From contig JAGXHY010000008.1 in assembly GCA_024635925.1 (NCBI GenBank), positions 1 to 64,000 of the forward strand: a stretch of DNA of 64,000 nt, given 5' to 3'. The notes below the pieces were generated by a model. The model searched no databases, was not told the origin of the DNA, and was given only the letters and a program-made list of their open reading frames with translations. This stretch comes from Bacillota bacterium. Its GTDB lineage: Bacteria > Bacillota > TC1. Shown here piece by piece: positions 10,215-22,924 of this stretch (position 1 is its first letter; every line of letters begins with the position of its first letter). The position numbers and the translations under genes are program-made.

Positions 10215-10547
10215 ATGATAAAAGTTACTGTTTACAGGGATAAACTTGGAAACTGGACTGGTTTTAAGTCTGAAGGACATGCTATGCATGGCGGTAATAG
10301 CAAGTATGATTTAGTTTGTGCTGCAATATCCATGCATCTGCAAACTATAGAATATAGTTTGACAAAATTTATAAAAAAAATTAGTGTTAAAAAAAATGAT
10401 GGCTATTTAGAATTGATTTTTCAAAGTAATGAAGATATAAGACTCGGGGGAATAGAATATATTTTCCTTAACGGCATAGAAATTCTTCATGAAAATTATA
10501 AAAATTCAATAAAGGTCCACAATAAGGAGGTGGAGTTTCATGTTTAA
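10215..10547 (+). CDS. prp: Ribosomal-processing cysteine protease Prp
   Basis: Prp removes the N-terminal extension of L27 in Firmicutes. The 110-residue protein begins with an Ig-like strand and has the catalytic pair H22 (GHAMHGG) and C35 (YDLVCAAIS), spaced as in the family. It lies between rplU and rpmA, starts two bases after the L21 stop, and overlaps the L27 gene by eight bases. The L27 encoded next carries the expected cleavage extension, which supports function. Confidence 0.95.
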
Positions 10548-10821
10548 ATTAGAACTTCAACTATTTGCTCACAAAAAGGGGCAAGGTAGTTCAAGAAACG
10601 GTCGTGATAGCAATGCACAACGACTTGGTGTAAAAAGAGGCGATGGTAGTATAGTTAAATCAGGAAATATTTTAGTTAGACAAAGAGGTACTAAAATTCA
10701 TCCTGGCATAAATGTTGGAATAGGTAAAGACGATACTTTATTTGCATTAATCGATGGTGTTGTACACTTCGAAAGAAAAGGTAGAGATAAAAAACAAGCT
10801 AGTATTTATGCAGCCCAATAA
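10540..10821 (+). CDS. rpmA: 50S ribosomal protein L27 with cleavable N-terminus
   Basis: L27 of 93 residues; its mature N-terminus reaches the peptidyl transferase centre. The first nine residues MFKLELQLF are the Firmicutes extension that Prp removes, leaving [15 protein letters not shown] as the mature start. The conserved body includes [25 protein letters not shown]-type sequence (near residues 29-53). ATG 10540 follows AAGGAGG. A terminator lies 11 bases after the stop. Confidence 0.97.
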
Positions 10822-10831
10822 TTTCAAAATT

Positions 10832-10857
10832 AACACTCCCTCAAGGGAGTGTTTTAT
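10832..10857 (+). terminator. Terminator after rpmA
   Basis: AACACTCCCT pairs with AGGGAGTGTT and is followed by TTTAT. It separates the ribosomal protein operon from obg, which starts 16 bases later without an obvious promoter of its own, so obg probably depends on read-through. Confidence 0.85.
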
Positions 10858-10872
10858 CTTTAAGGAGAAAAA

Positions 10873-12135
10873 ATGTTTTATGATAGAGCAAAGATTTATA
10901 TAAAAGCTGGTGACGGTGGTAATGGAATGGTATCTTTTAGGCGTGAAAAATATGTGCCTGAAGGTGGACCAAATGGTGGTGATGGCGGTATTGGTGGAAA
11001 TATATATATTCAAGGCGACAATAATTTAACAACAATGATTGATTTCAAATATAGAAAAAACTATAAAGCCGATAAAGGTGATAATGGTAGAAGTAGTAAT
11101 ATGCATGGTAAAAATGCTCCTGATAAAATCATCAAAGTACCTTTAGGTACAATGGTAAAAGATGATACTGGAGAAGTTGTCGCTGATATAATTGAGGATG
11201 GACAAAAACTGTTAGTTGCAAACGGAGGACGTGGAGGCCGAGGTAATGCAAGATTTATGACCAATAAAAATAAAGAACCTAAATTCGCGGAAAATGGAGC
11301 TCCTGGAGAAGAGCTTTGGTTAAACTTAGAATTAAAACTTATTGCTGATGTTGGGATCGCTGGCTATCCTAATGCTGGTAAATCAACCCTAATTAGTAGT
11401 GTTTCAAAAGCTAAGCCTAAAATTGCAGATTACCCATTTACAACTTTGGCACCTCATTTAGGAGTGGTAGAAGTTGGAGACGATAGTTTTGTATTAGCAG
11501 ATATACCTGGATTAATTGATGGTGCGAGTAAAGGTATAGGACTAGGACATGATTTTTTAAAACACTTAGAAAGAACAAAACTAATTATTCATTTAATTGA
11601 TGGAAATAGTTTTGAGAGATCAATCTATGAAGAATATAAAAATATAAATATGGAATTAACTTTTTTTAATGATGAATTAGGCGATAAAAGGCAAATAATT
11701 GCTATAAATAAAATTGATATACCAGGGGTTGAAGAAAAGGCTGATGAATTTATAGCCAAAATGAAAGAAGAAGGCTATACTGATGAAATATTCAAGATTT
11801 CAGCTGTTGCAAGAATTGGCTTAGATCCACTGATGTTAAAGACTCTTGAAATGGTAAGAACTTCACAACCTTCTGTTATATTTAAAGAAGAACATAAAAT
11901 TACATCTTTAAAAGAAAAACCACTTAATATCGAAATTATTGATGGTGTTTTTGAAGTTACTGGTGATGATGTATTTAGAGTATTTAAAATGGCTTACTTG
12001 GCTAGTGATGAAGGGATTATGCGTTTTCACAGGGCACTAGTTAGTATTGGTGTTGACGCACTTCTAAAAGAAAAAGGTGTAAAAGATGGAGATACAGTAA
12101 GAATTTATGATACAGAATTTGATTATATAGATTAA
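10873..12135 (+). CDS. obg: GTPase Obg (ribosome assembly)
   Basis: Essential GTPase acting in 50S maturation and stress signalling. Three domains are visible in 420 residues: the glycine-rich Obg fold (1-158, with repeated GGxGGxGG patterns such as GGPNGGDGGIGGN), the G domain with P-loop GYPNAGKST (near 164-172), switch DIPGL and NKID, and the C-terminal OCT domain (about 340-420). AAGGAG precedes the ATG. Location after rpmA is the standard arrangement. Confidence 0.97.
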   Translation: MFYDRAKIYIKAGDGGNGMVSFRREKYVPEGGPNGGDGGIGGNIYIQGDNNLTTMIDFKYRKNYKADKGDNGRSSNMHGKNAPDKIIKVPLGTMVKDDTGEVVADIIEDGQKLLVANGGRGGRGNARFMTNKNKEPKFAENGAPGEELWLNLELKLIADVGIAGYPNAGKSTLISSVSKAKPKIADYPFTTLAPHLGVVEVGDDSFVLADIPGLIDGASKGIGLGHDFLKHLERTKLIIHLIDGNSFERSIYEEYKNINMELTFFNDELGDKRQIIAINKIDIPGVEEKADEFIAKMKEEGYTDEIFKISAVARIGLDPLMLKTLEMVRTSQPSVIFKEEHKITSLKEKPLNIEIIDGVFEVTGDDVFRVFKMAYLASDEGIMRFHRALVSIGVDALLKEKGVKDGDTVRIYDTEFDYID

Positions 12136-12172
12136 AAAATATATAATTATTAATGAGGAAAATGGAGGATAT

Positions 12173-12466
12173 ATGTTAACTGGAAAACAAAAAAGATATT
12201 TAAGAGGATTAGCAACTCTTTTAAATCCTGTTGCTATCGTAGGCAAAGAAGGATTTACACCTGAAGTGATTAAAGAAATAAAAAATGGAATAAAAGCCAA
12301 TGAGTTAATTAAAATAAAAATTGGTAAAAATTCACCTAATGAAAAAATGGAAATTAAAACTATGATTGAAGAAAAGTTTAACGTAGATATAGTACAAATT
12401 ATTGGGAATAGCATAGTCTTATTTAAGAGTAAAGGTAAAAAAGAAACAAGTTATAAATTACCGTAG
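12173..12466 (+). CDS. yhbY: YhbY-family (CRM domain) RNA-binding protein
   Basis: A 97-residue CRM-domain protein associated with pre-50S ribosomes. Family features include LTGKQKRYLRGLATLLNPVA, the VGKEGFTPEVI stretch and the terminal QIIGNSIVLFK. ATG 12173 is preceded by ATGGAGG. It sits between obg and proB as in many clostridia and probably shares the obg transcript. Confidence 0.93.
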   Translation: MLTGKQKRYLRGLATLLNPVAIVGKEGFTPEVIKEIKNGIKANELIKIKIGKNSPNEKMEIKTMIEEKFNVDIVQIIGNSIVLFKSKGKKETSYKLP

Positions 12467-12476
12467 GATGTGTAAT

Positions 12477-13607
12477 ATGAAGATTGATTATGGACGTGAA
12501 ATAAAAAGAGTTATAGTTAAGGTTGGTACTAGCACCTTAACCCATGTAAATGGAACAATTAACATTAAAAAATTAGAACAATTAGTTAGAGGATTGGCTG
12601 ATATTAGCAATAGAGGGTATGAAGTGATTCTTGTTTCTTCTGGTGCAGTAGGTGCTGGAGTTGGTAAATTACAAAAAAAGAAAAAACCTACTACACTTCC
12701 TGAAAAACAAGCAATTGCTGCTATTGGTCAAGTGACTTTAATGCATATTTATGAAAAGTTTTTTGGAGAGTATAATAAGGTAGTTGGTCAGGTATTATTG
12801 ACAAGGGATGACTTAGTAGACCGGAAAAGAAATCTGAATGCTAAAAATACACTACTTGCTCTATTGCAACTAGGAGCCATTCCAATAATTAATGAAAATG
12901 ACACTGTTGCAGTGGATGAAATTAAAGTAGGGGATAATGATAGACTAGCTGCGTTTGTTGCATCATTAATTGATGCAGATTTATTAATAATTTTGTCTGA
13001 TGTGGATGGCTTATATACAGCAAATCCAGCAACATGCAAAGATGGTGTTTTAATAGATAAGGTTGAAAAAATTACGCCAGAAATTGAAGCATATGGTGGT
13101 TGTGAAGGTTCATCATTTGGTACAGGTGGAATGAAAACTAAACTTGAAGCAGCTAAAATTGGTACAGCTGCAGGTGTTTTTGTTGTTATTGGTAATGGAA
13201 ATGAAAAGAATCTTATATCCGATGTTATAAAAGGTGATTTTAAGGGAACTATTTTTATTCCTCATAATAAGAAAATTCACACAAAGAAAAAATGGTTACT
13301 ATTGTCATCAAAACCTAAAGGTTCGGTCACTATTGATGATGGAGCCCAAGTTGCATTGTTAAAAGATGGCAAAAGTTTATTAGCTATTGGAATAGTACAG
13401 GTAGATGGTAATTTTGAAGCTGATTCAGTTATTAGTATTAAAAATACACAAGATATAGAAATCGGACGAGGTATAACTTACTATAATAGTAAAAATATTG
13501 ATAAAATTAAAGGATTTAAAAACAAAGACATTACTAAAATTCTAGAAAGTGAATATGAGTATGATAATGTTATCCATAGAGACAACATGTCAGTAATAAG
13601 AATGTAA
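12477..13607 (+). CDS. proB: Glutamate 5-kinase
   Basis: First enzyme of proline synthesis, phosphorylating glutamate with ATP. The amino-acid kinase domain has VKVGTST, SSGAVGAGVGKL, NENDTVAVDE and VGDNDRLAAFVA motifs, followed by a C-terminal PUA domain (about residues 275-360). ATG 12477 has AGGATG six bases upstream; ATG 12468 is nearer the yhbY stop and less well placed. proA follows ten bases after the stop. With no proC in the window, the last step is encoded elsewhere. Confidence 0.95.
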   Translation: MKIDYGREIKRVIVKVGTSTLTHVNGTINIKKLEQLVRGLADISNRGYEVILVSSGAVGAGVGKLQKKKKPTTLPEKQAIAAIGQVTLMHIYEKFFGEYNKVVGQVLLTRDDLVDRKRNLNAKNTLLALLQLGAIPIINENDTVAVDEIKVGDNDRLAAFVASLIDADLLIILSDVDGLYTANPATCKDGVLIDKVEKITPEIEAYGGCEGSSFGTGGMKTKLEAAKIGTAAGVFVVIGNGNEKNLISDVIKGDFKGTIFIPHNKKIHTKKKWLLLSSKPKGSVTIDDGAQVALLKDGKSLLAIGIVQVDGNFEADSVISIKNTQDIEIGRGITYYNSKNIDKIKGFKNKDITKILESEYEYDNVIHRDNMSVIRM

Positions 13608-13617
13608 GGGGTTTATT

Positions 13618-14868
13618 ATGTTAAAAAAAATTATTGAAGAACAATGTAAGTCTGGTAAAAGTGCATCATACGAGTTATCATCAGTATCAATAAAGCTAAG
13701 AAATATAGCATTACAAGAAATGGCTACCTCGCTGAGAAAGAATGTTAGATTAATTTTAGCCGAGAATTTAATAGATATGGATAATGGTAAAGCTGAGGGA
13801 CTTAGTCAATCCTTATTAGATAGATTAATGCTTAATACAGACAGAGTTGAAGCGATGGCTAATGGTCTTGAATCATTAGCAAAGCTTGAAGATCCTATAG
13901 GTCAGGTTAGAAAAATGTGGAAGAGACCTAATGGGTTAGAAATCGCATCGGTTACTGTACCTTTAGGCTTGATAGCAATGATTTATGAAGCCCGACCTAA
14001 TGTTACTGTTGAAGCTGCTGGACTATGTATAAAAACAGGAAATGCAGTTATATTAAAAGGTAGTTCTACAGCCTATCATTCAAATAAAATATTAACTGCT
14101 TTACTAGTTAAAGGTGCAGACAAAGCAGGTTTGCCAAATGAATCAATTCAAATTATTGACTCAAAAGATAGAGAATCAGTTAATATATTAATGAAATTAA
14201 ATAAATTAGTTGATGTAATTATACCAAGAGGTGGAGCAGGCTTAATATCAAATGTAGTAAATAATTCTACTGTGCCAGTCATTGAAACAGGAATCGGAAA
14301 TTGTCATGCTTATGTGGATGATAAAGCTCAATTTGATATGGCCATGGATATTATTATTAATGGTAAGATCCAGAGGCCTAGTGTTTGTAACTCTTTAGAG
14401 AAAGTTTTAGTGCATAAGGATATCGCTAAAGATTTTCTGCCTGCACTTGAATTAAAGTTGATTGAAAATACCGTGGAAATTAGAGCATGTGAAAAAAGCA
14501 GAAAAATTTTAAAAAGCGGATTACCAATTACAGAGGAAGAGCTTTACAAGGAATACTTAGATTATATAATTGGTATTGTAATAGTTGATGATGTTTTTGA
14601 TGCTGTAAATCATATAAATAAATATGGATCAAAACACTCAGAAGTTATTATTACTGATAGTTACAAAACGGGAAAAATTTTCCAGCAATTAGTAGATTCA
14701 TCTTGTATCTATCATAATGCTTCTACCAGATTTTCAGATGGAGAGATGTTTGGCTTTGGAGCAGAAATAGGTATTAGTACACAAAAAATGCATGCTAGAG
14801 GACCTATGGGCTTAGAAGCACTAACAAGTATGAAATATATAATTAATGGTGATGGTCAGGTAAGATAA
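13618..14868 (+). CDS. proA: Gamma-glutamyl phosphate reductase
   Basis: NADPH-dependent reductase converting glutamyl-5-phosphate to the semialdehyde that cyclises toward proline. The aldehyde-dehydrogenase-like fold shows VPLGLIAMIYEARPNVTVEA, KGSSTAYHSN, IPRGGAGLI, the catalytic-cysteine region QRPSVCNSLEKV (near residue 260) and ARGPMGLEALTS near the end. At 416 residues it is normal length. Its stop and the nadD start overlap by one base. Confidence 0.96.
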   Translation: MLKKIIEEQCKSGKSASYELSSVSIKLRNIALQEMATSLRKNVRLILAENLIDMDNGKAEGLSQSLLDRLMLNTDRVEAMANGLESLAKLEDPIGQVRKMWKRPNGLEIASVTVPLGLIAMIYEARPNVTVEAAGLCIKTGNAVILKGSSTAYHSNKILTALLVKGADKAGLPNESIQIIDSKDRESVNILMKLNKLVDVIIPRGGAGLISNVVNNSTVPVIETGIGNCHAYVDDKAQFDMAMDIIINGKIQRPSVCNSLEKVLVHKDIAKDFLPALELKLIENTVEIRACEKSRKILKSGLPITEEELYKEYLDYIIGIVIVDDVFDAVNHINKYGSKHSEVIITDSYKTGKIFQQLVDSSCIYHNASTRFSDGEMFGFGAEIGISTQKMHARGPMGLEALTSMKYIINGDGQVR

Positions 14869-15470
14869 TGAAAAGAATAGGTTTGTTTGGAGGCACCTTT
14901 AATCCAATACATAATGGCCATTTACAGCTTGCTGAAGGGGTGCTGAAGCTCTTCAAACTAGATTATATATATTTTATACCTACTGGATTATCTTATCACA
15001 AGGAAGTCGAATATATTCCTAGCTCAAAAGATAGACTTAAAATGTTGGAATTGGCTACAGAAGAAAATGATAGCTTTTTAATATCTGATTGTGACATTAA
15101 AAGACCTGGACCAACATATACAATTGATACAATAAAAGATATGAATGAATTAGAACCTGAGGCTGAATTCTATTGGGTTATGGGATCAGATTCATTTGTG
15201 AATATTTTAAAATGGAAAGATTTAAAGGGGATAGGTAAGTCTGTTACTTTTCTAGTTGCTCTAAGAGCTGGTGAAAACAAGACATTTGTTGAGGCATATA
15301 GAGATTCATTACCTTTTCATTTAAAAGAAAAAGTTATTCTATTTGAGTGGCCTATACAAAATATTAGCTCAAACAAAATAAAAAAAACAATTATTGACAA
15401 AAAATACTTACCTAAAAGTGTTTATGAATATATTAAATTAAAAGGATTATATCATGGAACAATTAAATGA
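14868..15470 (+). CDS. nadD: Nicotinate-nucleotide adenylyltransferase
   Basis: Makes deamido-NAD from nicotinate mononucleotide and ATP. The 200 residues contain the nucleotidyltransferase signature GGTFNPIHNGH (residues 8-18) and ISSNKIKKTI, the usual ISSTxIR-type motif, near residue 170. The order nadD-yqeK-rsfS is typical of Firmicutes. It overlaps yqeK by 17 bases, implying coupled translation. Confidence 0.95.
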   Translation: MKRIGLFGGTFNPIHNGHLQLAEGVLKLFKLDYIYFIPTGLSYHKEVEYIPSSKDRLKMLELATEENDSFLISDCDIKRPGPTYTIDTIKDMNELEPEAEFYWVMGSDSFVNILKWKDLKGIGKSVTFLVALRAGENKTFVEAYRDSLPFHLKEKVILFEWPIQNISSNKIKKTIIDKKYLPKSVYEYIKLKGLYHGTIK

Positions 15471-16050
15471 AATTATACTTAAAATAGAGAATGAATACAA
15501 ATCTTTACTTTTAGAAATGAAATTATCAGATAAAAGGAAAAAACATATAGAGGGCTGTGTAGAATTAGCTTATTCTTTAGCTGGATTGTATAATATTGAT
15601 CAATATAAGGCAGTTTTAGCAGCCTTACTACATGATTTTTTTAAAGAATTAAATAATAAGGACATTATAGAAAAAGCTAAAAGATTAAATATAGATATTA
15701 GTGATTTTGAAGTAAGGTTTCCAAGAGTACTTCATGGGAAGGTGGCTGCCTCTTATTTCTTAGATAGAGGATTGATTAAAGATAAATATATTTTAGAAGC
15801 AATTAGACATCATACATTAGGAGCAGCTAATGTATCAGAATTAACAAAACTACTTTTTATAGTTGATGCAACAGAAAAGCATAGAGAATATGAGGGTGTA
15901 GTTGAATTAAGGAAAGGTATTGAAGAAAAAAATTTAGATGAAGCATATATTTTAGTTTTAAAAAAAACAATTATTGATATGATAATTAAAAATAAGGTCT
16001 TAGCTCCTTCCACAATTGGAGCATATAACTATATGATGGAGGTTAATTAA
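15454..16050 (+). CDS. yqeK: YqeK-family HD-domain hydrolase
   Basis: Members of this HD family hydrolyse symmetric diadenosine tetraphosphate. The 198 residues show the HD pair in LLHDFFKEL (near residues 57-65), a second histidine set in RHHTLGAANVSELTKL, and IVDATEKHREYEGV. Its place between nadD and rsfS supports the name. A ribosome binding site-like AAAAGGATT lies inside nadD upstream of the start. Confidence 0.92.
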   Translation: MEQLNEIILKIENEYKSLLLEMKLSDKRKKHIEGCVELAYSLAGLYNIDQYKAVLAALLHDFFKELNNKDIIEKAKRLNIDISDFEVRFPRVLHGKVAASYFLDRGLIKDKYILEAIRHHTLGAANVSELTKLLFIVDATEKHREYEGVVELRKGIEEKNLDEAYILVLKKTIIDMIIKNKVLAPSTIGAYNYMMEVN

Positions 16051-16373
16051 TGACAGGTTATGAAAAAAGTTTAATAGTTGAAAAAGTATTAAATGAAAAA
16101 AAAGGTATAGATGTAAAAATTATAGATCTAGCTGGTATTAGCATTATAGCAGATTGTTTTGTAATTGCGACGGGAATGAATAAAAAGCATATTGGGACTT
16201 TGGCTGATTATTGTGAAGATGCTTTAGAGGAAAAAGGAATAAAGAAACTTCGCAGAGAAAAATCAAACGATTGGGTTCTAATTGATTTTGGTGATCTAAT
16301 TGTACATGTGTTTGATCAAGAAGCTAGGAATAAATATAGCTTAGAAGATCTTTGGTCAGGGAATTTAAAGTAG
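16050..16373 (+). CDS. rsfS: Ribosomal silencing factor RsfS
   Basis: RsfS (DUF143/Iojap) binds L14 and blocks subunit joining when nutrients are short. The 107 residues carry VKIIDLAGISIIADCFVIATG, the RREKSNDWVLIDFGDLIVHVF core and the terminal YSLEDLW motif. GGAGG lies eight bases before the ATG, and the start overlaps the yqeK stop by one base. A regulatory LCP gene often found between yqeK and rsfS is absent here. Confidence 0.95.
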   Translation: MTGYEKSLIVEKVLNEKKGIDVKIIDLAGISIIADCFVIATGMNKKHIGTLADYCEDALEEKGIKKLRREKSNDWVLIDFGDLIVHVFDQEARNKYSLEDLWSGNLK

Positions 16374-16398
16374 TAAAAAAACAATTAATACTTAGTAT

Positions 16399-16438
16399 AA
16401 AAACCTCCTTTGTTTAAATATAAACAAAGGAGGTTTTT
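16399..16438 (+). terminator. Terminator whose 3' arm contains the comEA SD
   Basis: AAAAACCTCCTTTGTTTA pairs over 18 bases with TAAACAAAGGAGGTTTTT around an AATA loop. The T run ends two bases before the comEA ATG, and the AAAGGAGG in the 3' arm is the only ribosome binding site for comEA. The element would therefore end rsfS transcription and hide the comEA start on any transcript that reads through. Confidence 0.85.
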
Positions 16439-16440
16439 AT

Positions 16441-17022
16441 ATGAATAATTTTTTAGCTTTAGAAAAAAAAAACCAGATGATAAGTATTTTTATTATATTA
16501 ATACTTATTGTTTCACTCGGCTATTATTTTGGTAATTTGTCAAAAAGCAGGTTAGCTTATAATAATAATAAATCTGGTATTATAAGTGATCAAAATGAAA
16601 ATATTAATAATGATGAGTTATTATTAATAGTAAATATTAAAGGAGCTGTTAAGAATCCAGGGATTTATGAATTTCCAGACAAGTCAAGAGTTAATGATGC
16701 AGTTTTAAAAGCTATCCCATTAGAAAAAGCAGATTTAGTAACATTAAATTTAGCAATGTTTTTGCAGGATGAACAGGATATATATATTCCTTTTATTGAT
16801 GATGATGAAAGTACAGAAGAAAAAAAAGATAAACTTACTAGTATTAATAAAGCTGACGAGGATGAACTTGAAAACGTACCTGGAATTGGTCCAGTGATGG
16901 CTAAAAACATTATTATCCAAAGAGATAAAATTGGTAGATTTCAATCTATAGAAGCTTTATTAAATGTTTCTGGAATAGGTGAAAAAACATTAGAAAAAAT
17001 GCGACCATATATTAAGCTGTAA
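16441..17022 (+). CDS. comEA: Competence protein ComEA, DNA receptor
   Basis: Membrane-anchored double-stranded DNA-binding protein of the uptake machinery. The 193 residues show one transmembrane helix (about 12-30), a SLBB domain (about 58-115, LLIVNIKGAVKNPGIYEF) and two helix-hairpin-helix motifs at the end (LENVPGIGPVMAKNI, LNVSGIGEKTLEKM). GGAGG is seven bases upstream of ATG but inside a hairpin. It overlaps comEC by one base; comEB is absent. Confidence 0.93.
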   Translation: MNNFLALEKKNQMISIFIILILIVSLGYYFGNLSKSRLAYNNNKSGIISDQNENINNDELLLIVNIKGAVKNPGIYEFPDKSRVNDAVLKAIPLEKADLVTLNLAMFLQDEQDIYIPFIDDDESTEEKKDKLTSINKADEDELENVPGIGPVMAKNIIIQRDKIGRFQSIEALLNVSGIGEKTLEKMRPYIKL

Positions 17023-19256
17023 TGGAGGAAAAGGAAAACTCTTTAATTTTAATGCTTTCTTTTATTGCTGGAATAATTTCTAGTATGAAAAACGTTGGTA
17101 AAGTTAATATTATATTATTAATGATTTTAATTATAATTCTTACTAAAAAATGTGAGCTCTTAAAAATTACAAATAAAAAATTTGCTTTTACTGGATTGTT
17201 GATATTAACAATGTTCCTTTTTGGGTGGATACGAGGTTATATATTTGAGGTAAACTATAATAATACTATTAAAGCAGATTTATATTATGAAAATAGAGCT
17301 GTAGTAAAAAAAATTATGAAGAAAGATTTATATACTATTAAGTTAAATGAAAGTCCTAATTGTTTGGTAGTATTAAGATCAAAACAGAAATTAATACCTG
17401 GTATGCAAATATCCTTAACATGCTTATTAGAAGTCCCAAAAGATTCTTTAAATAGAGGAGGATTTTCATATAAAGAATACTTAAAATATAGAAATATTGA
17501 ATTTATTACTAATTCAGAAGAAATTAGATATTTAAAACAAATTAAAAATATAGATTATTACTTATACAAATATCAAATAAAATATTTAAATCAATTAAGA
17601 AAATATCTTGGTAATAGAATAAGGTTTATTGACAGTATATTTCTTGGAAATAGTAAAAGTATGAATGAAAATGAAATTAATACTTGGAGAAACATGGGAA
17701 TACTTCATTTGCAAGCAGTTTCAGGTTCCCAAATTGGTGCGACTCTTGATATATTGATGTTTATTTTTATTTTAACTCCAAAAAAAGGACTAACTAAGTA
17801 TGTTCTATTTACTATTCCTTTACTTACATATGGATTGATGACTAACAGTCCATCTGTTTGGAGAGCTATTTTATATATAATTGTTATAAAAATTTTACAA
17901 ATAAATAATAGAAATAAATTAGATATGCTTGCCTTGATGTTTACTATGATTATTTTATTAGTTATAAATCCCGGGATGTTATATCAAATATCTTTTCAAT
18001 TATCTTATGTAATAACTATTGGATTATTGTTGTTTAAAGATAATATTTTAAGGATTAACAATAAATTTCACAAGATAATATATGTTGGTTTTTTAAGTAT
18101 TATTTTTGCCTGGCCACTTTTGATCCAATACTTCCAAGAAGTATCATTATTTGGCATAATCTTTACTCCTTTATTTGCACCATTTATTCAGTTAATTATT
18201 TTCATTAGTTGTATATTGATGTTTTTACCCTTTGCAATTGTTTTCTTAAAACCTTTAGTCTTTTTTCTTAATATACTTTTAATTATATTGGAAGGAATAA
18301 CTACATTCTCCAGTAAAATTGATTTTTTAATAGTTAGAGGTAAGCCATGGGGGTTTTTAATAATAAGTATTTTCTATATTTATTTAGTATTTTGGAATAA
18401 TAAAAAATTTAAATTAAAATATAAGCATCTTTTTCCATTAATTTTTGCCAGTCTAATAATTTGGAATAATTTTAGTAATTTCATAGATAATGAAAATATT
18501 TGTGTAACCTTTATCAATGTAGGTCAAGGAGACTGTATATTAATTGAATGTAAAGATACTAGAAAAGTAATATTAATTGATGGTGGAGCTAAAAATAACT
18601 TTATAGATATGGGCGAGAAGGAACTGTTACCATATTTGAAAAGAAAAGGTATAAATAAAATAGATTATTTAATTAGTACACATAGTGATAATGATCACCG
18701 GGGTGGTTTAGAAAGTGTTCTTAAATATTGCGAAGTATCAGAAATATTAATCCCTTATAATAATAATGATGAATACCTAGATTGGATTTCTAAATATAAT
18801 GGTAAGGTAAAAGAAATAAATCAAGGATATAAAATAATTTTAGGAGATACAATTATTGATATATTGAATCCGTTAAAAATAAAAAAGGATTTAGATAGTA
18901 ATTCTAAATCAATTGTTTTAAGTTTAAATTATTATAACTCAAATATATTACTCACTGCAGATTGTGATTTAGACGTTCTAGAAAGACTTATTATAGATGA
19001 CTATAGTTTTGATATTGTGAAAGCACCACATCATGGCAGTAAATATTCTTACAAGAAAAATATATATAGTCAATTAAAGGTTAAAAGCGTAATATTCTCA
19101 GTTGGAAAGAACTTATATGGTCATCCTAGCAAAGAAATAATCAATGACCTGAATATTGCAAATATTGACTATTATCGTACAGACTACGATAAAGATATAG
19201 TAATTAAGTTAAAACGTAATGAGATAGATATTAATGATAAGAAATATCTAGAATGA
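17022..19256 (+). CDS. comEC: Competence protein ComEC/Rec2, DNA channel
   Basis: Forms the membrane channel that brings single-stranded DNA into the cell. The 744 residues show an N-terminal hydrophobic pair plus OB-like DUF4131 region (to about 165), the polytopic Competence domain (about 200-480; WRNMGILHLQAVSGSQIG), and a C-terminal metallo-beta-lactamase domain with HSDNDH at 554-559, VNVGQGDC-like FINVGQGDC and KAPHHGSKYS. All parts look intact, so a working DNA-uptake channel is plausible if pilus genes exist elsewhere. Confidence 0.95.
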   Translation: MEEKENSLILMLSFIAGIISSMKNVGKVNIILLMILIIILTKKCELLKITNKKFAFTGLLILTMFLFGWIRGYIFEVNYNNTIKADLYYENRAVVKKIMKKDLYTIKLNESPNCLVVLRSKQKLIPGMQISLTCLLEVPKDSLNRGGFSYKEYLKYRNIEFITNSEEIRYLKQIKNIDYYLYKYQIKYLNQLRKYLGNRIRFIDSIFLGNSKSMNENEINTWRNMGILHLQAVSGSQIGATLDILMFIFILTPKKGLTKYVLFTIPLLTYGLMTNSPSVWRAILYIIVIKILQINNRNKLDMLALMFTMIILLVINPGMLYQISFQLSYVITIGLLLFKDNILRINNKFHKIIYVGFLSIIFAWPLLIQYFQEVSLFGIIFTPLFAPFIQLIIFISCILMFLPFAIVFLKPLVFFLNILLIILEGITTFSSKIDFLIVRGKPWGFLIISIFYIYLVFWNNKKFKLKYKHLFPLIFASLIIWNNFSNFIDNENICVTFINVGQGDCILIECKDTRKVILIDGGAKNNFIDMGEKELLPYLKRKGINKIDYLISTHSDNDHRGGLESVLKYCEVSEILIPYNNNDEYLDWISKYNGKVKEINQGYKIILGDTIIDILNPLKIKKDLDSNSKSIVLSLNYYNSNILLTADCDLDVLERLIIDDYSFDIVKAPHHGSKYSYKKNIYSQLKVKSVIFSVGKNLYGHPSKEIINDLNIANIDYYRTDYDKDIVIKLKRNEIDINDKKYLE

Positions 19257-19265
19257 TGATATAAT
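19257..19265 (+). promoter_or_regulatory. Extended -10 promoter for holA
   Basis: TGATATAAT begins directly after the comEC stop and ends 24 bases before the holA ATG. No convincing -35 is visible. It would give holA a transcript independent of the competence genes, but the start site would be close to the ribosome binding site, leaving a very short leader. Confidence 0.5.
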
Positions 19266-19289
19266 AGATTAAGATAGGAGAGGTGTGTA

Positions 19290-20222
19290 ATGCAAAAAGA
19301 TTTACCGATAATGATATATTTTGGAGAGAATGAGTATGAACTAAATAAAAGTATTGAGAATCTTAGGAAAAAAACAGATTCAAGAATTATAGAAGTTAAT
19401 GATGGGTTAGATTTCCAGGACTTAATTGATATATTAAATACTCCAGCCTTATTTGAAGGTAATTTAATTTATAAAATTACTAATGAAAATATTTTAAATG
19501 ATGATAAAAATATTGATGTTTTAAAAGAGTATATAAACAATCCATCTCCATTTTCAAAAGGAGTTATTATAGCTAAAAAAATAGACTTTAGAAAAAAGGC
19601 ACCAAAGTATTTTAAAGAAAAAAAGTTGTTACTTGAGTTTTCTATAAAAAAAGGTTATGAACTGAGAAAGTGGATCAAGGAATATTTATGGCATCATGGT
19701 TATAATATTGCTGATGATGCAGTCGCTTACATAATTGAAATTGTTGGTGAAAATCAAATTATGATAGAAAATGAAATGAATAAAATATTTATTTATGAAC
19801 CAGATAATAAGAATATAGAGATAAAAGATCTTGAAGATTTTATAACTAATAGTTTCCAAAGTAATATATTTAATCTATTAGATAATATTTTTAACGAACG
19901 TAGCAAAATGCTTACCGCATTAGAAAATTTATTTAAATTAAAACAACCAGTTTCTTTGATTATTTATATGATTATTAGAGAATTAAGGTTGATATTACAC
20001 ATGAAATGGTATCTAAAAGAAAAATATAGAGAAGAAAAAATTGCAAGTTTATTAAAAATGAATGTATATTTTGCAAAGAAAAAAATTGGAATATCCAGAA
20101 AGTTAACATTTGCTGAAGTTTTTAAATATTTACAATTATTTTATGATCTTGAAGAAAAAATAAAGTCTGGGGAAGGTGAAGGGAAGTCATTGCTAAAAAG
20201 TACTTTATTATCTATAAAATAA
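19290..20222 (+). CDS. holA: DNA polymerase III delta subunit
   Basis: Clamp-loader delta subunit that opens the sliding clamp. The 310-residue protein starts with the family pattern PIMIYFGENEYELNKSIE and has the AAA-like middle domain (WIKEYLWHHGYNIADDAVAY near 130-150) and helical C-terminal collar ending in GEGEGKSLLKSTLLSI. holA next to rpsT in opposite orientation is a standard Firmicutes arrangement. GGAGAGG precedes the start. Confidence 0.95.
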   Translation: MQKDLPIMIYFGENEYELNKSIENLRKKTDSRIIEVNDGLDFQDLIDILNTPALFEGNLIYKITNENILNDDKNIDVLKEYINNPSPFSKGVIIAKKIDFRKKAPKYFKEKKLLLEFSIKKGYELRKWIKEYLWHHGYNIADDAVAYIIEIVGENQIMIENEMNKIFIYEPDNKNIEIKDLEDFITNSFQSNIFNLLDNIFNERSKMLTALENLFKLKQPVSLIIYMIIRELRLILHMKWYLKEKYREEKIASLLKMNVYFAKKKIGISRKLTFAEVFKYLQLFYDLEEKIKSGEGEGKSLLKSTLLSIK

Positions 20223-20247
20223 AAAAGCCTTCATTATGAAGGCTTTT
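20223..20247. terminator. Bidirectional terminator between holA and rpsT
   Basis: AAAAGCCTTCA and TGAAGGCTTTT form an 11-bp stem with a TTA loop, with A runs on one side and T runs on the other. It lies between two converging genes and can serve both. Confidence 0.88.
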
Positions 20248-20258
20248 ACTATTATTTA

Positions 20259-20513
20259 TTAAACATTGAATTTTTTTTGTAAACGGGAGATTTTTCTTGC
20301 AGCTGTTTTATTATGAATGATGCCTTTTTGAGCCATTTTATCAATAACACTAATAGTTTTATTTAAAATTGTCTCTTTATTTTCATCACTTGCTAAAATA
20401 GCAGTGTTTAACTTCTTAACTTGATTTCTCATAGCTGATCTCTTTTGAGAATTAACAATATTTCTTTGTTCAGCTATCAAAGCACGTTTTTTTGATGACT
20501 TTATGTTTGCCAT
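20259..20513 (-). CDS. rpsT: 30S ribosomal protein S20
   Basis: S20 binds 16S rRNA early in small-subunit assembly. The 84 residues begin MANIKSSKKRALIAEQRN and contain the lysine- and arginine-rich helical pattern NKTAARKISRLQKKF. A GGGAGGTG ribosome binding site lies upstream on the minus strand. The sporulation genes gpr and spoIIP, which follow rpsT in many spore formers, are not here. Confidence 0.97.
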   Translation of the reverse strand: MANIKSSKKRALIAEQRNIVNSQKRSAMRNQVKKLNTAILASDENKETILNKTISVIDKMAQKGIIHNKTAARKISRLQKKFNV

Positions 20514-20550
20514 TCTTTCACCTCCCTATAATACTTAAACTACAACAGTA

Positions 20551-20579
20551 ATTATACCACTCCATATTTTAAAAAGCAA
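20551..20579 (-). promoter_or_regulatory. Promoter for rpsT
   Basis: On the minus strand TTGCTT and TATAAT are separated by 17 bases, and TGG precedes the -10, giving an extended -10. The transcript would start near 20544, about 30 bases before the rpsT start codon. Confidence 0.7.
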
Positions 20580-20586
20580 TATTAAA

Positions 20587-21504
20587 TTATTTATTATTTA
20601 AATCAAAATCTGTTTCTTGGTACACGTAATAATTTATCCAATTTGCATATAATAGATTTGCATGACTTCTCCAAGAAACTTTAATATTTTTTTTCGGGTT
20701 GTTATCTTCAAAGTATGAAACTGGGATATCGATATCTAAGCCCTTATTATAATCTCTTAAATATTCTAGGGCAAGAGTTTCCTTATCATATTCAGGGTGT
20801 CCAGTTATATATAATCTGCGACGATCTTTTGATGCGATTATATGTGGTCCAGCTATTTCGGAGTTTGCTATAATTTCTAAATCATCATTTTCAAGTAATT
20901 CTTCAAGAACTATTTCTGTGTTTCTTGAATGTGGGGCGTTGAAGTAATCATCAAAACCTCGTGTTATTTTAGCAGTTTTATTAATAACCTTATGATTATA
21001 AATGCCAGATAACTTTTGTTTAAGAGGACGTTTATTTATGTTATGGTAATGATATAGTGCAGCTTGAGCTGACCAACAAATAAACATACAAGAATAAATT
21101 TTTTCATGTGCCCAATCAAGAATTTCTGTGAATTCTCTCCAATAGTCAATATCTTCAAAATCCATTAGTTCTATAGGCGCTCCCGTAACTATCATTGCAT
21201 CAAATCGTTTATTATAAACTTCATTAAAGGTAGAGTAGAAGGAGTCTAAATGACTTTTAGGAGTATTTTTAGATTCGTGGCTTGCCATTTGCATAAATGT
21301 TAACTCTAATTGTATTAGATTATTACTTAATAATCTAAGTATTTGAGTTTCAGTAACAATTTTTGTTGGCATTAAATTTAGAATTAATATTTGTAAAGGC
21401 CTAATGTCTTGAGTAGTTGCTCTTCTTTTATTCATAACAAATATATTTTCTTTATTTAATTGTTCAGTTGCTGGTAAATGTTCAGGTATAATTACAGGAC
21501 TCAT
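20587..21504 (-). CDS. metA: Homoserine O-acyltransferase MetA (probably acetyl)
   Basis: Activates homoserine for methionine synthesis. The 305-residue protein has the catalytic cysteine C143 in FICWSAQAAL and the H-x-E pair in TGHPEYDKETL. Residue 112, in TGAPIELMDF, is Glu. In studied MetA proteins, Glu at this place (Glu111 in Bacillus cereus numbering) goes with acetyl-CoA use, while Gly goes with succinyl-CoA, so O-acetylhomoserine is the predicted product. A SAM-I riboswitch lies upstream, giving repression when S-adenosylmethionine is plentiful. Confidence 0.94.
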   Translation of the reverse strand: MSPVIIPEHLPATEQLNKENIFVMNKRRATTQDIRPLQILILNLMPTKIVTETQILRLLSNNLIQLELTFMQMASHESKNTPKSHLDSFYSTFNEVYNKRFDAMIVTGAPIELMDFEDIDYWREFTEILDWAHEKIYSCMFICWSAQAALYHYHNINKRPLKQKLSGIYNHKVINKTAKITRGFDDYFNAPHSRNTEIVLEELLENDDLEIIANSEIAGPHIIASKDRRRLYITGHPEYDKETLALEYLRDYNKGLDIDIPVSYFEDNNPKKNIKVSWRSHANLLYANWINYYVYQETDFDLNNK

Positions 21505-21532
21505 ATGTACCTCCGTATAATGATAATATTAT

Positions 21533-21559
21533 CAAAAAAAAATCTTCCCACAGGAAGAT
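21533..21559 (-). terminator. Riboswitch-controlled terminator of metA
   Basis: On the minus strand ATCTTCC and GGAAGAT form a stem followed by nine U. Its 5' arm overlaps CATCTT, which can instead pair with AAGATG (plus 21581-21586) at the 3' edge of the aptamer, giving a competing antiterminator. Confidence 0.85.
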
Positions 21560-21576
21560 GAGAAATTAGATTAGAC

Positions 21577-21670
21577 AATCCATCTTGCAGTTAAACTGTA
21601 GGAGTTAGCACCTTGCTTTGCAGGTTGCTGAGGTTTCATAGGGCCTATCCCTTCACCTCTCTTGATGATT
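21577..21670 (-). promoter_or_regulatory. SAM-I (S-box) riboswitch aptamer before metA
   Basis: The minus strand reads ATCAAGAGAGGTGAAGGG, then AGGCCCTATGAAACCTCAG, CAACCTGCAAAGCAAGGTGC and TAACTCC, matching the S-box core in order, including the GATGAAACC-like, CAGCAACC and AAGGTGCTAA elements. P1 is closed by AATCATC with GATGGATT. Downstream lie mutually exclusive antiterminator and terminator stems, so SAM binding should cause premature termination. The regulated gene metA fits the methionine role. Confidence 0.95.
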
Positions 21671-21676
21671 AATTTA

Positions 21677-21706
21677 ATTATATAACATTTATGGCAAATT
21701 TGTAAA
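21677..21706 (-). promoter_or_regulatory. Likely promoter for the metA leader
   Basis: TTTACA and TATAAT are separated by 18 bases on the minus strand, just upstream of the riboswitch aptamer. The predicted start near 21670 coincides with the first paired base of P1. Confidence 0.6.
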
Positions 21707-21828
21707 TGAAAATTAGTAAAATACTAGTTTAATTATTGATTTTATTTAAGACTCGTAGAAATTCAAGTTAGATTTATAAGTAATAATCATAATATTAATA
21801 GCCTATTGATATTTTACTAAGAGCTTTT

Positions 21829-21839
21829 TATGATATAAT
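21829..21839 (+). promoter_or_regulatory. Extended -10 promoter for recA
   Basis: TATG-A-TATAAT matches the Gram-positive TRTGnTATAAT motif exactly; no good -35 is present. It lies 62 bases before the recA start codon. Confidence 0.65.
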
Positions 21840-21901
21840 AATTATATTGTGAAAATAATAGAAATAGAATAATATTATCATATAAGAAGAGGAGTATATT
21901 T

Positions 21902-22924
21902 ATGGAAAAAGAAAAAGAAAAAGTACTTGAGATTGCCCTTAGCCAAATAGAAAAACAATTTGGAAAAGGTAGTATAATGAGATTAGGTGATGGTGGTAAT
22001 TATAGAAATATCGAAGCTATTTCTACTGGGATATTGCCTTTAGATGTTGCTATTGGAATAGGTGGCTATCCAAAGGGAAGAATAATAGAAATATATGGAC
22101 CAGAATCATCGGGAAAAACTACAGTTTCCTTACATGCAGTTGCCTCAATTCAAAAAAATGGAGGAACAGCTGCCTTTATCGATGCTGAGCATGCCTTAGA
22201 TCCTGTATATGCCAGGAATTTAGGAGTAAATACTGAAGAACTACTTGTATCTCAACCAGATACTGGAGAACAAGGATTAGAGATTTGTGAAGCTCTAGTT
22301 AGGAGTGGAGCAGTAGATATTATTATTGTAGATTCTGTAGCGGCCTTAGTTCCAAGAGCCGAAATTGATGGTGAAATGGGTGATTCCCATATGGGGCTAC
22401 AAGCTAGATTAATGTCTCAAGCTTTAAGGAAATTAGCTGGAGTTGTAAATAAATCTAATACTATAATTATTTTTATAAATCAATTAAGAGAAAAAATCGG
22501 AGTGATGTTTGGTAATCCTGAAACAACAACAGGAGGACGTGCACTAAAATTTTATTCCTCAGTAAGAATTGATGTAAGAAGAATTGATAACATTAAAAAA
22601 GGTGTTGATATGATTGGTGTGAGAACAAAGGCTAAAGTAGTTAAAAATAAAGTTGCTCCACCTTTTAAAGTAGCAGAATTTGATATAATGTATGGTGAGG
22701 GTGTTACTAAAGAGGGTTGTGTTCTTGATATGGCTGCAGATCTTGATATTATTCAAAAAGCTGGATCTTGGTACAATTATGGTGATGATAAGTTAGGTCA
22801 AGGCAGAGATAATTCGAAGCTTTATTTGAAACAACATCCAGATATGCTCCAAGAAATAGAAGAAAAGGTTATGGCTAAATCATTACATATAATATCTGAA
22901 GATGATAACAAGGTAAATGCGTAG
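21902..22924 (+). CDS. recA: Recombinase RecA
   Basis: Strand-exchange protein and co-protease of the SOS response. The 340 residues include the P-loop GPESSGKTT (near 66-74), [28 protein letters not shown], the DNA-binding loop region [21 protein letters not shown] and a short acidic C-terminus. GAGGAG precedes ATG. recX overlaps its end by eight bases. No recognisable LexA box lies upstream, so SOS control, if any, would use another site. Confidence 0.98.

Follow-up and report, generated by a model that had tools for sequence, protein, structure and literature searches.

The comEA locus

The window, by which the whole stretch of 64,000 nucleotides analysed is meant, has a G+C content of 29% and belongs to a genome of 1.43 Mb. 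Its comEA locus comprises the following features.

16050–16373, + strand: rsfS (PF02410), directly upstream of the comEA leader; its transcript would run into the hairpin
16395–16442, + strand: comEA leader hairpin of 22 bp; core AACCTCCTTTGTTT (16402–16415) with AAACAAAGGAGGTT (16422–16435)
16426–16433, + strand: comEA Shine–Dalgarno sequence (SD) AAAGGAGG, within the 3′ arm
16434–16440, + strand: T-rich stretch between the comEA SD and the start codon, possible terminator tail
16441–17022, + strand: comEA (HHH_3, E = 1.4e-20; SLBB, 26.9 bits versus a cut-off of 27)
17022–19256, + strand: comEC (PF03772 Competence, Lactamase_B); its start overlaps the comEA stop
19290–20222: holA, after comEC with a gap of 33 bp

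The sample consisted of ten genomes of the class: five of the genus (G000–G004, the window lying in G000), one of a second genus of the same family (G005) and four of another family. Because the N-terminus of the protein is conserved among relatives, the ATG at 16441 is taken as the right comEA start. Since PF02481 (DprA) and PF00437 (type IV pilus ATPase family) have matches in all five genomes of the genus, DNA uptake by the genus is plausible. The comEA of G005 is 33% identical over residues 3–133. The comEA and radC frames of G005 (G005:C1; L127 and L131) are interrupted in the assembly, although the hairpins of both leaders are preserved; owing to the interruptions, which may reflect decay or sequencing error, G005 is a weaker witness for function. 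holA is needed for growth in model bacteria, and some RNA must therefore cross or start in the comEA region.

The comEA hairpin is the sole hairpin between rsfS and comEA, and its 5′ arm (16395–16416), loop of 4 nt (16417–16420) and 3′ arm (16421–16442) form 22 perfect pairs, including the A and U of the AUG. An earlier sequence-only reading of this DNA had correctly placed the SD in the 3′ arm of a perfect hairpin directly before the comEA ATG, but had given the stem as 18 bases, where 22 pairs are found. Its statement that this is the only SD of comEA agrees with our inspection, in which no second SD word was seen before the start, and its proposal that read-through RNA would pair the SD is borne out by folding, with an unpaired probability of 0.001. 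The 121-nt comEA fold (−33.2 kcal/mol, z = −7.2) was equalled by none of 200 shuffles, and in the local fold (z = −7.8) none of 100 shuffles was as low. Among 63 starts in the window, 62 of them with an SD-like word, comEA had the lowest unpaired probability and the lowest energy (−28.0), with the radC SD second least accessible (0.013); the starts were picked by script, and a few of them, such as that of comEC, are not the likely ones.

The hairpin also has the form of an intrinsic terminator, a GC-containing stem followed by a U tract, and it was listed as terminator-like in a scan of 10500–22000 that found 8 sites versus 3.2 expected. In all six comEA leaders of the family 4–6 T lie immediately 3′ of GGAGG.

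The radC leader

A second instance of the arrangement, missed by the sequence-only reading together with the GTAAA element that both leaders share at nearly fixed spacing, lies at the start of the window.

107–141, + strand: in G000, a further terminator-like hairpin that is distinct from the radC leader and lies upstream of it; from sequence and fold
179–220, + strand: radC leader hairpin, AACCTTTTTTGTT (179–191) with AACAAAGGAGGTT (208–220); kept in six of six family genomes
211–218, + strand: radC SD AAAGGAGG, within the 3′ arm
225–905, + strand: radC (PF04002 and UPF0758_N); precedes an MreB gene

The radC SD is locked by folding in all five genomes of the genus (unpaired probability 0.000–0.148) and in G005 (0.001), where the SD is altered to AAAGGAAG and matched by a CTTCCTTT arm. 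The gene upstream of radC is Rex-like in G001 and G004, a BMP lipoprotein gene in G002, of Mur-ligase type in G003 and ArsD-like in G005 (Pfam on four of the six genomes; G004 and the cut frame of G000 by eye), and because it differs between species the leader module belongs to radC. By inspection, the tail after the radC hairpin has 3–5 T, mostly interrupted, starts with ATA in G003 and is weaker than that of comEA. Since the upstream gene varies and the tail is less terminator-like, SD sequestration is the trait common to both leaders. The terminator named in the sequence-only reading thus stands as far as the scan and the T run go, but as a secondary feature.

Conservation of the pairing

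Folding pairs the SD in all twelve leaders (comEA and radC of G000–G005). The comEA hairpin is present in the five genomes of the genus, with SD unpaired probabilities of 0.001–0.005, and in G005 (0.001). The sequence-only reading had staked itself on the persistence of both arms in relatives; the 5′ arm is indeed kept with compensating changes, and its loss, which was to count against the reading, was not seen.

In nine leaders, standard pairs fill 98.3% of the pair cells, and three pairs are changed on both sides, which was reached by 2 of 500 shuffles; the covariation score was reached by none of 500, the shuffles ignoring relatedness. The covariance model and this pair count omit radC_G003 and comEA_G005, which were dropped after an 11-leader MAFFT alignment had misplaced radC_G003, as well as radC_G005. 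These three leaders change more, with GTGT/ACAC in comEA_G005, TGCTT/AAGCA in radC_G003, and both SD and arm in radC_G005. Judged from these sequences, it is the pairing, and not the letters, that is under selection. By sequence and folding, a predicted SD lock in read-through RNA is well supported.

Shared upstream elements and the candidate RNA start

Upstream of the hairpins lie the following elements.

16373–16377, + strand: GTAAA element of comEA, its distance to the CCT of the 5′ arm being 31 nt; could be a −35 region or the site of an activator
150–154, + strand: GTAAA element of radC, likewise 31 nt upstream of its CCT
16383–16390, + strand: AATTAATA block, common to comEA and radC at equal spacing
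16396–16401, + strand: TATAAA, candidate −10 box; RNA would begin near 16408, within the 5′ arm

GTAAA is present in all twelve leaders and stands 31 nt from CCT in nine, 30 nt in two and 27 nt in one, while CCT and the SD core lie anywhere from 24 to 51 nt apart. A promoter that starts RNA inside the arm needs rigid upstream spacing, and the near-fixed GTAAA-to-CCT distance fits such a start. In comEA the element lies over the rsfS stop codon in four genomes of the genus, in the end of rsfS in G003 and past the stop in G005, and because its place relative to this stop varies, codon constraint fails to explain it. Identity between comEA and radC is 0.73 in the AATTAATA block versus 0.28–0.30 upstream. 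In distant radC pairs, conservation starts sharply at ATGTAAA: identity is 0.26–0.32 upstream, 0.89 in the three bases before GTAAA and 1.00 in GTAAA, then 0.46 and 0.29, the positions 19–31 that hold the −10 slot being at background (0.29). With a matrix trained on comEA leaders alone, the radC_G000 site comes 12th among 127,928 window positions, and with a radC-trained matrix comEA comes 81st, in a test that ran without radC_G003 and radC_G005, in which comEA_G005 entered one base out of register, and for which the shared motif had been spotted beforehand. GTAAA matches TTGACA poorly.

The slot of TATAAA reads TATAAA, TATATG, TAGAAA, AAGTTT and TATTAA in the comEA leaders of the genus (5, 4, 4, 2 and 4 of six −10 matches in G000, G004, G001, G002 and G003) and TATTAT, TATTAT, TATAAT, ATACCA and TAAATT in the radC leaders (5, 5, 6, 0 and 4), with 2 and 2 in the leaders of G005; radC_G002 has TATACC one base off slot −8, where its match is 0. 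A hexamer scan of the twelve leaders picked out no single favoured −10 slot: slots −24, −20 and −8 share the highest mean, 3.58 of six matches, a maximum that 30 of 2000 shuffles reach. A sigma-70 scan was uninformative (72 sites versus 75.4 expected). The TATAAA on which the sequence-only reading had built is thus where it was said to be, but it is no more than a candidate −10 box, the slot being variable across species and two other slots tying with it.

When RNA from the ten leaders of the genus was folded from successive starts, GGAGG was open at 0.00–0.01 from CCT+0, and from CCT+6 at 0.79–0.94 in radC and 0.24–0.51 in comEA; with starts further in, openness fell back to 0.11 in comEA_G001 and 0.24 in radC_G003. 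The earlier proposal that a start inside the 5′ arm frees the SD is therefore sustained in silico in graded form, starts 4–6 nt in leaving the SD wholly or partly free. A start at CCT+4 to CCT+6 would often be a pyrimidine. The AATTAATA block, which is better shared by the two genes, could itself be the −10 box, in which case RNA would begin immediately 5′ of the hairpin and its SD would be locked.

Specificity and other paired starts

A covariance model built on nine leaders recovers 11 of the 12 and misses radC_G005. Inspection of 12 weaker matches to it gave no convincing further gene leader, and at E ≤ 0.001 there were no matches in the four non-family genomes of the class. With Rfam 15, neither leader in the window reaches a gathering score; the only match there is a SAM riboswitch (21577–21671, − strand), which lies upstream of a homoserine O-succinyltransferase gene (20587–21504, − strand) and is preceded by TTTACA-18-TATAAT.

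Outside the family, 25 further comEA loci were folded from starts chosen by script (L006–L030). Eight had no SD-like word, and in three of the remaining 17 (L006, L011 and L024) the SD was unpaired below 0.02. Of these three only L011 belongs to the same class, and L012, a neighbour from its genus, is open (0.615); outside the class, similar pairing is seen at 2 of the 14 further comEA starts that have an SD word. Independent comEA locks may exist outside the family. For radC, the leaders L128–L130, from three of the class's four non-family genomes, have SD unpaired probabilities of 0.14–0.33, the broken-up radC of G008 being left out. The dprA starts are open (0.38–0.64). So are most starts of the PF00437 ATPase genes, which were taken from the longest ORF near the match and are doubtful; L086 (0.079) and L089 (0.017) are the ones that are not.

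A CCTCC-GGAGG-TG pattern gave 45 matches in the five genomes of the genus versus 37 for its reversed control and covers comEA in five of five and radC in three of five, the other two having CCTCT or CCTTT. A further recurring pair (G002 and G004) was rejected as lying within a reading frame, and the rest were judged by eye. A looser CTCCT-AGGAG pattern gave 83 matches in six genomes versus 38 for the control. Among the recurring matches checked, rpsN and one more were set aside because they overlap the end of a frame upstream, rplI (0.37–0.38) and cmk (0.14–0.96) because the SD is not strongly locked, and one recurring match because it is, by eye, inside gcvT-like coding sequence.

Two other genes have a similar geometry. 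At deoC in four genomes of the genus (G000:C20:131344–131384, L195; L193, L196 and L178), CTCCT stands just upstream of a TATAAT box and an AGGAG SD stands downstream; the SD is unpaired at 0.001–0.042 in the full RNA and at 0.79–0.91 in RNA from the promoter. Given the short stem and a nearby divergent gene, this lock may be incidental. A membrane-protein gene of 199–204 aa, which looks like an ECF-type S component, is preceded by CTCCT-TG(C/T)TATACT and then an AGGAG SD in G001 (L224), G004 (L225) and G003 (L226), and its SD is unpaired at 0.013–0.043 in the longer RNA, with deoC-like geometry and short stems. The strong gene-start hairpin module recurs only at comEA and radC among the matches checked, and it may have weaker relatives; deoC and the membrane-protein gene may use this geometry in weaker form within the genus.

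Several other hairpins were noted in passing. Upstream of a gene for a 354-aa BMP-like lipoprotein (L055 and L053), the SD is partly paired with TCCTT in a long hairpin (0.25–0.30 unpaired). In G000 a TATAAT box stands directly before this TCCTT, which is the geometry proposed for comEA. This leader matched no Rfam family at gathering score, and a close homologue of the gene was found only in G000 and G002 among the six family genomes. The BMP-like lipoprotein family as such is large, with 13 matches in G000 and 17 in G002 over many contigs. In G004 (L222) and G003 (L223), short ORFs, one of them transposase-like by eye, follow a CTCCT...AAGGAG hairpin (0.008 and 0.169 unpaired); these hairpins resemble the known self-protection of insertion sequences. 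A palindrome at G005:C1:469708–469750 has an SD and an ATG on both strands, and the ORFs that follow are only 48 and 24 aa.

Discussion

In the explanation that we favour, which we consider to have an even chance of being right, comEA and radC carry a start-site-gated translation lock like that of phage T4 I-TevI. The leader module would consist of a GTAAA promoter or activator element, in most cases a AATTAATA-like block, a near-fixed gap, and a hairpin with the only SD in its 3′ arm. RNA begun upstream of the module would have its SD paired in the conserved stem. The gene's own promoter would instead start RNA inside the 5′ arm, for comEA at about 16406–16410, so that CCTCC is absent and GGAGG is open; if GTAAA is a −35 region, this start would lie 4–6 nt inside the arm. 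RNA leaking from rsfS, or from the gene upstream of radC, would then yield no ComEA or RadC, and only RNA from the dedicated promoter would be translated. The comEA hairpin may additionally end most rsfS transcripts. The internal start, a regulator and the effect on translation are the steps that we infer. The hairpins probably keep RNA leaking from neighbouring genes untranslated, and the 'off-by-default' switch for competence proposed in the sequence-only reading would follow as a further inference.

We put forward more tentatively, as somewhat short of an even chance, the broader claim of a family-wide 'read-through lock' for competence, in which a promoter and a hairpin precede two unrelated DNA-uptake-associated genes and only RNA from a competence promoter inside the hairpin is translatable. 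The weaker deoC and membrane-protein gene cases and the background identity at the −10 slot pull the odds in opposite ways.

The most serious competitor is a switch opened in trans, in which RNA starts upstream of the hairpin, for example with AATTAATA as the −10 box, and a protein, a small RNA or a helicase, produced when needed, opens the leaders of both genes. One element on two genes suggests a shared factor, no block apart from GTAAA is shared better than AATTAATA, and the GTTGAA(A/G)TAATATT kept apically in four of the five radC leaders of the genus is a possible binding site; however, the apical parts of comEA and radC differ, folds of −13 to −28 kcal/mol would be costly to open, and no Rfam family was found at gathering score at either leader. 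Such a switch has no need for fixed spacing between GTAAA and the arm, and radC has no conserved −35 element where its promoter would require one. We regard it as unlikely, at perhaps half the weight of an even call. The same fixed spacing is left unexplained if the hairpin is a plain terminator that ends the rsfS operon, with the GGAGG arm doubling as the SD through tight gene packing. This would suit the position of the comEA hairpin directly 3′ of rsfS, its terminator-like score and the T run in all six leaders, but radC is equally locked with a weaker tail and changing upstream genes, G000 has a separate terminator-like hairpin upstream of radC, and comEA would still require an RNA with an open SD; we consider a plain terminator improbable. 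The poorest fit is a site that acts at the DNA level, with the palindrome as the operator through which a regulator controls comEA and radC, the hairpin in the RNA being incidental. The motif is common to two genes and is a near-perfect inverted repeat in the DNA, but an operator should keep its letters, whereas in radC_G003, comEA_G003 and both G005 leaders the arm letters co-vary and pairing is kept, and the loop ranges from 4 to 34 nt. We hold this very improbable.

A start-site-gated lock on comEA could let read-through RNA supply downstream holA without making ComEA. If the proposal is true, a strategy of phages and transposons is used in core chromosomal genes, and two competence-associated genes of an uncultured clade are linked by a cis RNA lock, whose presence on both is an independent sign that the cell handles the pair as a unit. 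It would show how DNA-uptake genes could stay silent in transcribed neighbourhoods, would offer a culture-free sequence tag for their control (GTAAA, about 31 nt, SD hairpin) and would be a test case for start-site-gated translation beyond phages and transposons.

IS10/Tn10 and IS200 are reportedly protected from external transcription, and in them, as in the leaders described here, RNA structure over the start region is said to keep read-through transcripts untranslated; unlike comEA and radC, the genes concerned are transposase genes. In Legionella, RocR/RocC exerts post-transcriptional repression of comEC, comEA, comFC and comM (PMC7811196). Competence genes are thus silenced after transcription there as here, but RocR is a small RNA that acts in trans, together with a protein chaperone, whereas the lock proposed here would work in cis on comEA and radC and belongs to a different phylum. 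Both genes are late-competence genes in S. pneumoniae (PMC6560143), and radC is competence-induced in several bacteria and dispensable for transformation where tested (PMC4630621). The ComX and ComK regulons are transcriptional, and an SD lock is unmentioned in the parts of these two sources consulted; radC precedes mreB here too. No description of a cis lock on comEA or radC was recognised in the literature searched, which covers few subscription papers.

The closest likeness is to phage T4. According to PMC2988022, I-TevI, I-TevII, I-TevIII, segB and Aeh1 mobE have a hairpin over the ribosome-binding site in long transcripts that RNA from the late promoter cannot form, and sequestration of the site is also named for T4 soc, e, 39, 25 and 26. 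As in the I-TevI group so described, a consensus SD lies in a very stable hairpin directly before the AUG in RNA from upstream promoters. Unlike that group, the genes here are chromosomal, are associated with competence and belong to uncultured bacteria; their promoter is a putative one, and the module stands before two unrelated genes.
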